Of a stretch of DNA of 64,000 nucleotides, positions 34,601 to 57,200 are shown piece after piece. The stretch lies in NCBI RefSeq assembly GCF_036227105.1, contig NZ_CP109434.1:5179001-5243000 (forward strand). Direction: 5' to 3'. The stretch comes from Amycolatopsis sp. NBC_01488 (GTDB lineage: Bacteria; Actinomycetota; Actinomycetes; Mycobacteriales; Pseudonocardiaceae). Numbering within the stretch: position 1 is the first letter of the stretch; the number at the start of each line of letters is the position of its first letter. The notes under the pieces were generated by a model. It worked only from the letters and a program-made list of their open reading frames with translations, made no database searches and was not told where the DNA came from. The position numbers were made by a program, and so were the translations under genes.

Positions 34601-37600
34601 CGGGCCGTGGTGGTCGGCGACGATGGTGACGACCTGCTCGCCCGGCTCGACGCGGTGACCCCCGTGCTCGCGGAGCCGGGCAAGACGGCGTTCCTGTTCT
34701 CGGGGCAGGGTTCACAGCGCACCGGGATGGGTGCGGAGCTGTACGAGCGGTTCCCGGTGTTCGCGGACGCGTTCGACGCGGTGTGTGCGCTGGTGGACTC
34801 TTCGCTGGATCGGCCGTTGCGGGAGGTCGTTTCCGATTCCGGCTCGGCGCTGGACGAGACCGGGTACACGCAGCCCGCGTTGTTCGCGGTCGAGGTGGCG
34901 TTGTTCCGGCTCCTGGAGTCGTGGGGCATCCGGCCGGACTACGTGGCCGGGCACTCGATCGGCGAGCTGGCCGCGGCGCACGTGGCCGGGGTGCTGTCCC
35001 TTGAGGACGCTTGCCGGTTGGTGGCGGCCCGGGCAGGTCTCATGCAGGCGCTGCCGGGCGGGGGCGCGATGCTGGCCGTCGAGGCCACCGAAGACGAGGT
35101 CTCCGCGATCCTGACCGGCGGCGTGGACTTGGCCGCGGTCAACGGGCCGTCGTCCGTGGTGGTGTCCGGCGAGGTCGACGCGGTTGCCTTGATCGAGCGG
35201 CACTTCACCGGGCTGGGCCGGAAGGTCCGACGGCTGACCGTGTCGCACGCGTTCCACTCGGCGCTGCTGGACCCGATGCTGGACGCGTTCGCGGCCGTCG
35301 CGGACGGGCTGACCTTCCACGCGCCGGAGATTCCGCTCGTGTCCACTGTGTCCGGTCGGCTCGCCGGCGACGAGATCCGGACGCCGGAGTACTGGGTGCG
35401 TCAGGTCCGCGAGCCGGTGCGGTTCGCGGACGCGTCCGTCTCGCTGGCCGGGCTCGGCGTCACGCGAGGACTCGAACTCGGCCCCGACGGCGTGTTGTCG
35501 GCGCTGGCCGCGTTTCCCGCGGTTCCCTTGCTGCGCAAGGATCGTGCCGAATATCCGAGCCTGCTCACCGCGCTGGCCGACGCGCACACGCGGGGCCACA
35601 CCGTCGACTGGCGGGCGGTTCTGCGGGCGGCGCACCCCGGGCGTCCCGGTGGCGCCGTCACGGTGCCGACGTATCCGTTCCAGCGTCGGCGCTACTGGCT
35701 GGAGGCACGCCCGTCGGCGGGCACGGAACTGGACGAGCGGTTCTGGGCCGCCGTCGAGAGCGGCGATCTCCCGGAGCTGACCGACGTCGACGCGCAGACA
35801 CCGCTCGGTGCGGCGCTGCCCGCGCTGGCGGCCTGGCGGGACCGGGGCCGGTCGCGATCGCTGGTCGAGCAGTGGCAGTACGAGATCACCTGGACCACCC
35901 TGGCCAGTCTCGGCGCGGGCCGCCTCGACGGACGTTGGCTCGCGGTGGTCCCGGCCGGCGCGGAAGACCTGCTCCGTGCCCGCTTCGACGTGCTCGAGGT
36001 GACGCCCGCCGACGATCGGGCTTCCCTCGCCGCACGCTTGCGCTCCCACGACGGGCTCGCCGGGATCGTGTCCACAGTGGACGTCGGCGGCCAGCTGGCC
36101 CTGGTCCAGGCCCTCGGCGACGCGCAGATCGACGCACCGCTGTGGTGCGTCACCCGGGGCGCGGTCGCGGCAGCGGAAGGTGACGTGCCGGACCCGGCGC
36201 AGGCGATGGTCTGGGGCCTCGGTCGCACGGTGGCCCTGGAACACCCCCACCGCTGGGGCGGCCTGGTGGATCTGCCCGCCGAGGTGGACGAGCCGACGCT
36301 GGACCGGCTGTGCGCGATCCTCGGCGGAGCAACGGGGGAGGACCAGCTGGCCCTGCGCGGTCCCGCGGTGCTGGGCCGCCGCCTCGCCCGGGTCGTGAGT
36401 GAGAAACAGCGTTCTAACCCTGTTTCTCACTCACGACCCTGGCAGCCGAGCGGCACCGTCCTCGTCACCGGCGGTACCGGCGCCCTTGGGAAGCACGTCG
36501 CGCGCTGGCTGGCGGACGCCGGAGCCGAACGCCTCGTCCTGCTCGGCCGCCGGGGCCCCGACGCTCCCGGCGCCCGGGACCTGGCCGCGGAACTGACCGC
36601 GCTGGGCACCAAAGTCGACCTCCTGGCCTGCGACGTCACCGACCGCACGGCGCTCGAGACGACTCTGCGCGACGTCGGCGAGCTCACCGCCGTCGTGCAC
36701 ACCGCCGGTGTCCTGGCCGATGGCGTGCTCGAAGCCCTCACTCCGGAACGCCTGGCCGAGGTCGTCGACGCCAAGGCCACCGCGGCCCGGCACCTGCACG
36801 AACTGACCGCGACGCACCCGCTCCAGGCGTTCGTCCTCTTCTCCTCCTGCGCGGGCACGTTCGGCGCGGCCGGGCAAGGCAACTACGCCGCCGCCAACGC
36901 CTACCTCGACGCCCTCGCTGAACTGCGTCGGGCGCAGGGCCTGGTGGCGACCTCGATCGCCTGGGGTCCCTGGGCCGACGGCGGGATGGCCACGGCGGCC
37001 GCCGCCGAGGAGCACCTCGGGCGCACCGGGCTCGTCCCGCTGCGGCCCGAGCGGGCGGTCACCGCGCTGCGGGCCGCGGTCGACGACGGCGTGGCGGCCG
37101 TCACCGTCGCCGACGTCGACTGGGACCGGTTCGCCCCCGCGCTCACCGCGTCCCGGCCGAGTCCGTTGATCGGCGGCCTGCCCGAGGTGCGCCGGCTCGA
37201 GCCGGTCGCCGCGGATCCGCTGGAGTTGTCGGCCGCGGACGCCGACCGGGTGCTGCTCAGGCTGGTGCGGGAGCAGGTCGCCTTCGCACTCGGCCACCGC
37301 TCGGCCGACGACGTCCCCGCCCACCACACCTTCAAGGAACTCGGCTTCGACTCCCTGACCGCGGTCGAGCTGCGCAACCGCCTCGACACCGCCACCGGCC
37401 TGCGGCTTCCGGCCACTCTCGCGTTCGACTACCCGACCGCGACGGCGCTGGCGGCGTACCTGCGCACCGAGTTGCTGGGCGAGGCCGAAGAAACCCCGGC
37501 GACCCTCGCAACGAACACCGACGAGCCCATCGCCATCGTCGGCATGAGCTGCCGGTTCCCCGGCGGCGTGCGGAACCCGGACGAACTCTGGGCGCTGCTC

Positions 37601-54200: not shown

Positions 54201-57200
54201 CGCTCGGGCGACGACGTGTACGCCGAGGTGGCCCTGCCCGCCGGAACCGCCACCGGGGAGTGGGGCCTGCACCCGGCGCTGCTGGACGCGGCGCTGCACG
54301 CGCTGGCGTTCGCCGACCTGCCGGACGTGCTGCCGTTCTCGTGGGCGGGCGTCAGCCTGCACGCGACGGGCGCGACCGAGCTGCGAGTCCGCCTGCGGCG
54401 GACGGGAAGCGCGGTCCAGCTGACCCTGGCCGACCCGACGGGCCGGATCGTCGCCACGGCCGACGCCGTCGTCCTGCGCCCCGCCACCCGTCGCGCGGCC
54501 ACGACCCACCACCGCGTGGAGTGGGTCGTGAGTGAGAAACAGGGTTCTAACGCTGTTTCTCACTCACGACCGGCCGCGGCGATCGGTGACGTCGGGCTGG
54601 GCGAGTTGTCCGCCTATGGCGAGTTCGCCGAGCTGGCGGCCGCCGGCGAGGTGCCCGAGGTCGTCTTCGCCTCCTGCCGGCCCGAGGACACCGATGACCT
54701 CACCTGGGCCGTCTGGGCTTCGGCGCAGCGGGCGTTGGCGCTGGTCAAGGCCTGGCTGGCCGACCCGCGGTCCGCCGGCTCACGGCTCGTGTTCGTCACC
54801 CGTGGCGCGGTCGCCGTGCGTGACGGCGAAGTGCCGGACGTCGTGGAAGCCGCCGTCTGGGGTGCCGTGGAGCCGCTGCTGACCGCGCACCCCGGCCGGT
54901 TCGCCCTCGTCGACGGCGCCGTCGTCGAGCCGGACGCGGATCGGCTCGCGGTCCGTGACGGCGTCGGCTACGAGCCGCGGACCACCGCGGTCACGCCGGA
55001 CGCCTGGAAGCCCGAGGGGACCGTGCTGCTCACCGGCGCGTCCGGTGACCTGGGCGCCGCCGTCGCGCGGCACCTCGTCGAGGACCGGGGCGTCAAGCGG
55101 CTCGTCGTCCTCGGGGAGGCGACCCTGCCGGTCCCGGCCGACGTCATCGCCTGCGACCCCGCCGACCGCTACGAGCTGGCGCGAGCACTCCGGGACGTCC
55201 CGGACGTGACCACGGCCGTCCACATCGGACTCGCCGAAGGCGCGGCGGACCTGCGAGAGCGCGCGGACATCGCGTTCAACCTCGCCGAACTGGACGTCGA
55301 CCTCGTGGTCCTGACCGCCGCGGGCGGCGACGGCCTGGTCGCGGCGCAGAGCGCGGTGCTCGAAGCGGTCGCGCACAGTGCGCTGGCCTGCCGTCCCGGT
55401 GAGACGTTCGACCTGCTGGGTACGCGGGGTGCGCTCCGCGTCGTCGAGCACACCCCGGCGAAGGCCAAGACCCGCCGGGTGGTCGCCCAGGTGGCCGACG
55501 CGGGCAACGCGCTGCACCAGAAGCTCGCCCGGTTGCCCGAAACCGACCGGCACCGGGCCCTCCTCGACATCGTCCGCACCGAAGCCGCGCTGGTCCTCGG
55601 CCACGCCGGGCCGGACGCGGTCGGCGCCGACCGCGCGTTCAAGGAACTCGGCGTCGACTCGCTGACCGCCGTCCAGCTGCGCAACGGCCTGAACACCGCG
55701 ACCGGCCTTCGCCTGCCCGCGACCTCCGTCTTCGACCACCCGACGCCCACCGCGCTGGCGAAGGCACTGCACGCCGAGCTGTTCGGTGAAGAGGAAGAGC
55801 GCACCGAGGCCGTCACCCGGGTCGACGAGCCGATCGCGATCGTCGGCATGGCCTGCCGCTATCCCGGCGGCATCGCCGACCCCGACGACCTCTGGCGGCT
55901 CGTCGCCGAGGGCGGCGACGCGATCTCGCCGTTCCCCACCGACCGCGGCTGGGACCTCGAGGCGCTCTACGACTCCGACCCGGACGCGCCGGGCACCTGC
56001 TACGCCCGCGAAGGCGGGTTCCTGCACAACGCGAGCGAGTTCGACCCCGGCTTCTTCGGGATCAGCCCGCGCGAGGCCGTCGCGATGGACCCGCAGCACC
56101 GCCTGCTGCTGGAAGTGTCGTGGGAGTCGCTGGAACGCGCCGGGATCGACCCGGCCACCCTGCGCGGCAGCCGGACCGGCGTCTTCGCCGGCATCACCTA
56201 CCAGGACTACGGTGGCCTCCTCGGCGCCGCGACCGACAGCTTCGAAGGCTTCCTCGGCACCGGCAACTCCCCGAGCGTGCTCTCCGGCCGCGTCGCCTAC
56301 ACCTTCGGCCTGGAAGGGCCCGCGGTCTCGATCGACACCGCGTGCTCGTCGTCGCTGGTGGCGATCCACTGGGCCTGTCAGTCGCTGCGGGAGAGCGACT
56401 GCACCCTCGCCCTCGCCGGCGGCGTGACGGTCATGTCCACTCCGGTCTCGCTGGTCGAGTTCAGCCGCCAGCGCGCGCTGGCGGCCGACGGGCGCAGCAA
56501 GCCCTTCTCCGCCGACGCCGACGGCGCGAGCTGGGCCGAGGGCGCCGGGATGCTGCTGCTGGAACGGCTTTCCGACGCCGAGCGCAACGGTCACCGCGTG
56601 CTCGCGGTGATCAAGGGCTCCGCGATCAACTCCGACGGCGCGTCCAACGGCCTCACCGCCCCGAACGGGCCGTCCCAGCAGCGGGTGATCCGGCGGGCAC
56701 TGGCCAACGCGCGGCTGTCACCGTCCGATGTGGACGTCGTCGAGGCGCACGGCACGGGCACGAAGCTGGGCGACCCGATCGAGGCGCAGGCCATCATCGC
56801 CACCTACGGCCAGGACCGTGAACGTCCGCTCTGGCTCGGCTCGTTCAAGTCCAACGTCGGGCACGCGCAGGCGGCCTCCGGCGTGGGCGGCGTGATCAAG
56901 ATGGTCCAGGCCATCCGGCATGGCCTGCTACCGAAGACGCTGCACGCCGAGGTCCCGTCGCCGCACGTCGACTGGGACGCGGGCGACGTCAGCCTGCTCA
57001 CCGAGACCCGGCCGTGGCTCGCCGACGGCCCGCGCCGAGCGGGGGTCTCGTCGTTCGGGATGAGCGGGACGAACGCGCACCTGATCCTGGAGCAGGCCGC
57101 CGGGAACGCCGCCGAGCGGGAGAAGCGGGAGACGCCGGCGGCGGTGCCGTGGCTGCTGTCCGGCCGGACGGCCGACGCGCTGCGCCGCCAAGCCGAACTT

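Follow-up and report, generated by a model that had tools for sequence, protein, structure and literature searches.

Two 48-bp palindromes lie in frame within two type I polyketide synthase (PKS) genes of Amycolatopsis sp. NBC_01488, on the 64,000-nt stretch of its genome analysed here (the window). The reading that we favour, with some reserve, is that they are probably copies of a mobile palindrome resembling the repetitive extragenic palindromic (REP) elements, which lives as a 3'-end hairpin, probably a terminator, and is tolerated in PKS linkers. The element measures 44-48 bp, belongs to Amycolatopsis and some of its relatives, and is built from conserved 9-10-nt ends and a GTTNNAAC centre, with an inner stem between them that is lineage-specific and for the most part complementary to itself. 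Its usual home is immediately 3' of stop codons, mainly between convergent genes, where it would form a strong hairpin in both transcripts, and it often provides the stop codon of a neighbouring gene. The palindrome appears to spread, to be lost and to be overwritten by copies with other inner stems, and its dyad serves as the landing site of an IS481-family transposon.

Copy number, anatomy and position at gene ends

Pattern searches of the genome that contains the window (a single 9.5-Mb contig, C1) returned 95 copies when 10-nt ends were required and 112 when the ends were shortened to 9 nt; the reversed-pattern controls returned none. Within the genus, the family was found in 62 of 80 genomes (this one included), with 0-356 copies each. 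In a family-level sample searched with a loose pattern, 123 of 390 genomes, from 17 of 46 genera, gave matches, many of them at just one or two places; two of these genomes (G322 and G386, with 5 and 20 forward matches) were also hit by the reversed control pattern, and their counts may therefore stem from other repeats. When the centre was required, an evenly drawn sample of the order gave matches in 13 of 397 genomes and 2 of 85 genera, the 318 genomes from elsewhere in the order giving none. No match to the palindrome pattern was found in the viral contigs searched, and Rfam at gathering thresholds, applied to the window and four loci, assigned no family to the palindromes, the only hits being to ASpks elsewhere in the window. 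The same inner stem was found in 27 stretches of Amycolatopsis vancoresmycina and A. vastitatis. Since six of these align over thousands of bases with the fetched part of our genome at 88-92% identity, the window belongs to the group of these two species.

Anatomy and context were derived from 93 mapped 46-bp copies out of the 95, and 17 further copies with altered outer bases were left out; it should be noted that the outer 10 nt of the mapped copies are imposed by the search pattern. The inner positions up to 18 are complementary in 81 to 93 of the 93 copies, with paired changes at position 11 (AT 73, GC 9, TA 2, CG 1), and position 19 is unconstrained, pairing in 26 of 93 copies against 34 expected by shuffling. 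In 86 of the 93 copies the central dinucleotide is CT or AG; the adjoining GTT/AAC is well conserved. Across the family, the conserved parts are the ends (TCGTGAGTG) and the centre motif; among the copies listed for other genomes these stay constant, while the inner stems differ by lineage, some stem families being common to several genomes. In genome G079 the arm types are often mixed, the two arms being identical at the four stem positions beside the end in 26 of the 100 copies listed, where shuffling would give 13.

A tail resembling CAGCCGCGGCAGAC accompanies one side of 21 of the 93 copies (loose pattern). No unpaired GTAG or CGTC tag was found, both window copies being paired up to their ends, and the flank table of the 93 copies revealed no conserved tetranucleotide, only a C at the first outward base (139/186). 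Among the matches listed, the end motif GTCGTGAGTG stands singly at 13 places, of which 10 are palindromes ending in CACTCACGAG, 2 are otherwise changed in the far arm, and one (L232) has no palindrome. Shorter palindromes of 40 and 34 bp, with the same or nearly the same ends and different interiors, were observed at C1:8600139 (L083) and C1:3549654 (L036), respectively. No palindrome accompanies the tail GTCTGCCGCGGCTG at C1:663535 (L209); the corresponding place of the sister genome G030 (C1:676142, L190) has both a similar tail and a palindrome. This suggests that the solitary tail is a relic or a preferred neighbour.

The position of the copies was determined on 1.44 Mb of DNA fetched around them, on which genes were called by a home-made codon model with a filter on G+C by codon position. 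Sixty-two of the 93 copies lie between convergent genes, 26 lie 3' of a co-directional gene, one lies between divergent genes, and four are coding, so that 89 are intergenic or overlap a gene end. The background gene pairs of the same DNA, which were sampled around the copies and include their own junctions, number 217 convergent, 219 divergent and 745 co-directional; against them, convergent spacers are enriched (p 7e-29) and divergent ones depleted (p 7e-7). All but two of the 26 co-directional copies lie within 50 bp of the upstream gene's stop (24/26, <=50 bp), and 38 of 93 copies contain the stop codon of one or both neighbouring genes. Two other genomes behaved similarly: 12 convergent, 8 co-directional and one unclassified among 21 copies of G079, and 7 convergent, 7 co-directional and 5 coding among 19 copies of G030. 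A first-pass annotation of the window had proposed a protein-coding palindromic mobile element. Its dispersed nature and its ability to sit in frame in PKS genes are borne out, whereas a mainly coding, PKS-bound habit is not, with only 4 of 93 copies coding.

Turnover between sister genomes and a probable terminator-like role

A two-way comparison with G030 was made over 400 kb, most aligned blocks being about 91-92% alike. At ten sites occupied in our genome, G030 has a replaced stem at four, the same subfamily at two and an unrelated hairpin at three, and one could not be assigned. At the four sites with a replaced stem the ends match (0-1 of 20 bases differ), whereas the inner stem has 10-14 changes in 18 bases; the 8-nt centre has 0-3, mostly in its middle pair, and the flanks are 90-97% identical. 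At this level of divergence point mutation would hardly produce a new stem between kept ends, and for this reason we infer that elements are converted in place or that the same sites are used repeatedly. In the reverse direction, five of the 12 G030 copies found by the comparison script are at shared sites, five are absent from our genome (one of them in a PKS gene) and two could not be placed; the script overlooked one further shared copy, the first base of which is a variant. The first-pass annotation had looked to many genomic copies, intergenic and coding, and to empty sites in relatives as support for mobility: at least 112 copies exist, with nearly all of those mapped lying at gene ends, and empty or otherwise filled orthologous sites were seen. 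The opposite case, in which only the two window copies would exist and orthologues would be non-palindromic, does not hold.

Several results point to a role at the 3' ends of transcripts. The two window copies fold as RNA with -34.8 and -37.5 kcal/mol (z about -10), and together with the context of the 93 copies this places a stable hairpin directly 3' of stop codons, as in an intrinsic terminator. At convergent junctions with gaps <=250 bp, a hairpin other than the element (arms >=11 bp) is present in 52 of the 141 that lack the element and in 1 of the 59 that contain it (Fisher p 1e-8), an exclusion that is partly an effect of length, because little sequence remains beside an element; in single-base shuffles of the same junctions, the counts are 7 of 141 and 0 of 59. 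The unrelated hairpins at three of the ten sites compared in G030 have arms of 13, 24 and 21 bp, the third being the end of a 439-bp stretch that is extra in G030. Four sites that are occupied in A. vancoresmycina or A. vastitatis and lack the element in our genome could be compared, and two of them hold a strong unrelated hairpin (17 and 19 bp) here. Judged from sequence, the element's most likely role is that of a bidirectional terminator or of a hairpin at 3' ends. Tandem hairpin-forming units (CAACGCACCGAAGGGCCCCTTGGGTGCGTT) were also observed in G030 at C1:586682-586810 (L186), 3' of a gene that carries the palindrome in our genome; they are perhaps another hairpin repeat family.

Besides the length effect and the sampling of the background pairs already described, a number of points weigh against a mobile element settled at terminators. 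The gene calls rest on an unbenchmarked gene finder, and the location at gene ends could arise through purifying selection alone. The third of the four A. vancoresmycina/A. vastitatis sites has a hairpin with 12-bp arms that the relative has too, next to its element, and the fourth has no hairpin in our genome; likewise, at all four intergenic sites occupied only in G030, our genome has no hairpin with arms >10 bp. A U-tract is absent as a rule: of 186 flanks, 4 have TTTT among their first 12 outward bases and none has TTTTT (in random 12-mers TTTT is rarer, 47 in 20,000), and T occurs 3-49 times in 186 at each of the first 20 outward positions. Because the classical U-tract is generally missing and the reverse comparison of sites is mixed, termination is a function that we infer. 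As regards mobility, no consistent target duplication accompanies the palindrome at the empty sites compared, several of which represent replacement and not clean insertion. In addition, no mobilising enzyme was identified: a search of our genome for Y1_Tnp (PF01797) gave no match, the control being positive in 5 of 14 genomes.

Some of these points would suit a purely selfish palindrome without a host function, which inserts widely and is spared by purifying selection in gene-end spacers and PKS linkers. Such an element would explain the depletion in divergent, promoter-bearing spacers, the presence in PKS linkers and the several empty sites of our genome that have no substitute hairpin. On the other hand, the strong preference for convergent over co-directional spacers, the location of copies a few bases from stop codons, the near absence of a second hairpin beside the element and the unrelated hairpins that stand in its place in G030 all speak against it, and we regard a purely selfish element as rather unlikely.

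The location bias and the exclusion of second hairpins could also be produced by an ordinary, immobile host terminator motif under selection, comparable to the TRIT repeats, in which the similarity of the copies would reflect the binding of a termination factor. This explanation is disfavoured and appears improbable, considering that copy number varies from 0 to 356 within one genus, that the inner stems form discrete subfamilies, that copies are present or absent at orthologous sites of genomes about 91-92% alike, and that some copies lie within open reading frames (ORFs).

In-frame copies in polyketide synthase genes

The first-pass annotation had described two 48-bp palindromes with identical 19-nt arms, in different PKS genes, of lower G+C than their surroundings and both read in a single stop-free frame. 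Coordinates and arm comparison agree with this description. The arms of both copies are GGTCGTGAGTGAGAAACAG, 19 nt long, perfect and mutually identical, around 10-nt centres that read CGTTCTAACC and GGTTCTAACG. Each copy has 25 G or C in 48 bases, against 71.7% G+C across the 1.44 Mb of the same genome. Both are in phase 0 of long PKS ORFs, the other two frames in the direction of the gene meet TGA immediately, and on the opposite strand the third frame hits TAG as well where the centre is AG. The motif GTCGTGAGTG occurs four times in the window, always inside the two palindromes (expected 0.45; none of 100 shuffles reached four), whereas TCGTGAGTG with one mismatch allowed is not in excess (8 against 19 expected). 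The features are listed in Table 1.

Table 1. Palindromes, host genes and transposon insertions (window positions; C1, positions on the whole contig).
Feature	Position	Strand	Remarks
Palindrome copy 1, 48 bp, 19-bp perfect arms	36391-36438	+	In frame in PKS gene; encodes 16 residues; immediately 5' of catalytic KR domain
Palindrome copy 2, 48 bp, 19-bp perfect arms	54524-54571	+	In frame in following PKS gene; encodes 16 residues; linker 3' of DH domain
Type I PKS gene, ~4507 aa, host of copy 1	28700-42220	+	Pfam AT, PKS_DE, KR around site
Type I PKS gene, ~8091 aa, host of copy 2	42258 to past window end (64000)	+	Pfam AT, DH, SpnB_Rossmann, PP-binding, KS around site
KR domain match PF08659, starts 13 bp 3' of copy 1	36452-36979	+	Residues 485-660 of translated window:35000-37099
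PS-DH domain match, stops 23 bp 5' of copy 2	54111-54500	+	Residues 387-516 of translated window:52953-56252
End motif GTCGTGAGTG (TCGTGAGTG, better conserved portion)	36392-36401	+	Mirror image at 36428-36437, minus strand
Conserved centre GTTCTAAC	36411-36418	+	In other copies, middle of 16-bp target of IS481-like transposon
IS481-family insertions at dyad, 16-bp duplication	L224 C1:1601300-1602672; L225 C1:3349770-3351142; L226 C1:3004837-3007653		

Ten Rfam ASpks (RF01782) matches were also observed antisense to the PKS genes, on the minus strand of window positions 6247-61268; they are probably conserved coding sequence and not small RNAs.

Two further coding copies are present in our genome, one at C1:5251206, 8.2 kb beyond the end of the window in the next PKS gene, and one at C1:884737 in another PKS gene. 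All four are in PKS genes according to Pfam, in codon phase 0 and in the sole stop-free orientation. They encode the peptide VVSEKQxSN(P/A)VSHSRP, with the exception of C1:5251206, which encodes a variant 16-residue peptide; the gene finder placed this copy one base off, and a direct reading of its frame met 0 stops in 800 codons. Five coding copies were seen in G030, each in the open phase of a PKS-type ORF (assigned by Pfam for the new one). Because four of these five are orthologues of the copies in our genome and the fifth is of another subfamily with a different peptide, the nine coding copies represent five insertion events seen. In the orthologous PKS clusters compared (our genome, G030, G006 and G040), site 1 is occupied in every genome but G040, site 2 holds a copy in each of the four, which has decayed in G006 and G040, and site 3 is occupied only in our genome and G030.

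The coding copies seen lie in the single stop-free phase and orientation within PKS interdomain linkers, where an insert of 16 residues is presumably tolerated, and where translating ribosomes would stop the hairpin from acting. One may ask whether these copies are instead under selection as linkers with a function in the PKS protein, as might be suggested by the restriction of all nine to PKS genes with the frame kept. Orthologues in G040 and G006 that are without a copy or have a decayed one, and a second subfamily that encodes a different peptide, make such a selected role quite improbable, and neutrality of the insert in PKS linkers appears the better assumption.

An IS481-family transposon at the dyad and relation to known repeats

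Some palindrome arms are exactly 1373 bp apart, and correspond to palindromes split by a gene for a 390-aa IS481-type transposase (rve, LZ_Tnp_IS481). This transposase is encoded in 15 of the 80 genomes of the genus (E <=1e-100; at least 44 matches), and 30 insertions drawn from all 15 were examined. The right half-palindrome was found at all 30 and the left half at 28, the exceptions being L250 and L254; a separate arm test was also passed by 28 of 30, in which L250 was counted despite a doubtful left arm and L245, with decayed arms, was not. The insertion sequence (IS) has TG...CA ends in 27 of 30 insertions, and the dyad is at the centre of a 16-bp duplication whose two copies are identical in 22. 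Since some duplications mismatch, recombination between IS copies is suggested, which could shuffle palindrome arms. In our genome, five of the six transposase matches were inspected (L240/L224, L255, L265, L225 and L226), and all are within palindromes, the copy at L226 being broken by an IS256/Mutator-type transposase gene. Among the matches listed (up to about 4.13 Mb), the three arm pairs 1.4-2.8 kb apart are palindromes interrupted by an IS481-like element that has TG...CA ends of its own.

The presence of the IS inside the palindrome in nearly every insertion examined raises the question of whether the palindrome is a miniature inverted-repeat transposable element (MITE) of the IS481-like element, that is, solo ends left by the transposon. 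The arm pairs spaced by 1373 bp were considered as an autonomous parent of such a MITE and rejected, because the IS lies inside the palindrome with ends of its own, between two 16-bp repeats of the palindrome centre. In G049, moreover, three IS copies whose transposases score equally interrupt palindromes that differ in their inner stems, and the palindrome is therefore the target and not part of the IS, which in addition is found, at the cut-off used, in only 15 of 80 genomes against 62 for the palindrome. The MITE origin is thus disfavoured and very improbable.

The preferred reading, a REP-like mobile palindrome, can be compared with known systems in the passages that describe them. REP elements, tagged by GTAG or CGTC, are short high-copy palindromes of 20-40 bp, mostly 3' of genes (PMC3733652, PMC2817692). 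Like them, the Amycolatopsis palindrome is present in high copy number (about 100 or more copies, mostly extragenic), lies mainly between convergent and co-directional ORFs with few intragenic copies, is a target of insertion sequences, and comprises subfamilies with alternative complementary stem residues. Unlike them, it is about 48 bp long with a long stem, has conserved ends and centre around exchangeable inner stems, and shows neither the unpaired tag nor a Y1/HUH transposase of the REP-associated tyrosine transposase (RAYT) type. The idea of a classical REP mobilised by a RAYT (TnpA-REP), for which the first-pass annotation had suggested a search, is scarcely credible in spite of the similar size range, copy number, gene-end location and IS targeting, considering that a genome with 112 copies has no Y1_Tnp match and its palindromes no tag. 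The main text of PMC3733652 does not contain the words Amycolatopsis, Actinobacteria or Streptomyces.

IS1397, ISKpn1, IS621, ISPpu9 and others insert into REPs (PMC1525189), and as in those cases a transposon here has a dispersed palindrome as its specific target. The REP-targeting elements named in the relevant passages belong to IS3, IS110, IS4, IS256 and IS5, whereas the present one is of the IS481 family with a 16-bp duplication on the dyad; the word IS481 is absent from the main text of that paper. The Rickettsia palindromic elements, as described in part in PMC10969869, are about 150 bp long and mostly in ORFs of unrelated genes. They share with the present element the ability of a mobile palindrome to be in frame in ORFs and to add a peptide, and differ from a 48-bp element whose coding copies (4/93) are all in PKS genes; the analogy drawn in the first-pass annotation therefore suits the in-frame minority and not the family at large. 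SPRITE of Streptococcus pneumoniae (PMC10969869) and TRIT of Mycobacterium tuberculosis (PMC3526491) are likewise dispersed repeats resembling terminator hairpins, from which, on the descriptions consulted, the Amycolatopsis element is set apart by the usual lack of a U-tract, the in-frame coding copies and the targeting by an IS. Spaced palindromic motifs near gene 3' ends in Bradyrhizobium japonicum, e.g. GAATCCAT(N)23ATGGATTC (PMC5217627), are similar in being palindromic pairs with a long spacer, in tens of copies near gene 3' ends. Their sequence differs, the relevant passages mention no mobility, coding copies or IS targeting, and the word Amycolatopsis is absent from that paper.

Beyond the REP-like reading itself, we tentatively put forward a more specific model, which we consider possible and do not rate as probable. 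A palindrome without a transposase of known type would spread by overwriting gene-end hairpins, its ends and centre acting as exchange handles and its inner stems as swappable cassettes. Orthologous terminators would thereby be replaced wholesale between species, by each other or by unrelated hairpins; the IS481-family transposon would be parasitic on the palindrome, and misplaced copies would be those found as in-frame PKS linkers.

Among the results listed from the open-licence literature, on the arm sequence, on palindromes or terminators of Amycolatopsis, on actinobacterial palindromic repeats and on Pseudonocardiaceae repeats, we found no account of this palindrome, and IS481 together with palindromes gave no match. 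Amycolatopsis, a genus that includes producers of clinical antibiotics, thus gains a REP-like repeat for which those results yielded no description, and an IS481-family transposon that has a defined target, a palindromic sequence of 16 bp. The palindrome illustrates how PKS linkers can acquire peptides, and it opens the questions of how terminators turn over between bacterial species and how the inner stem of a palindrome with conserved ends is replaced in place.

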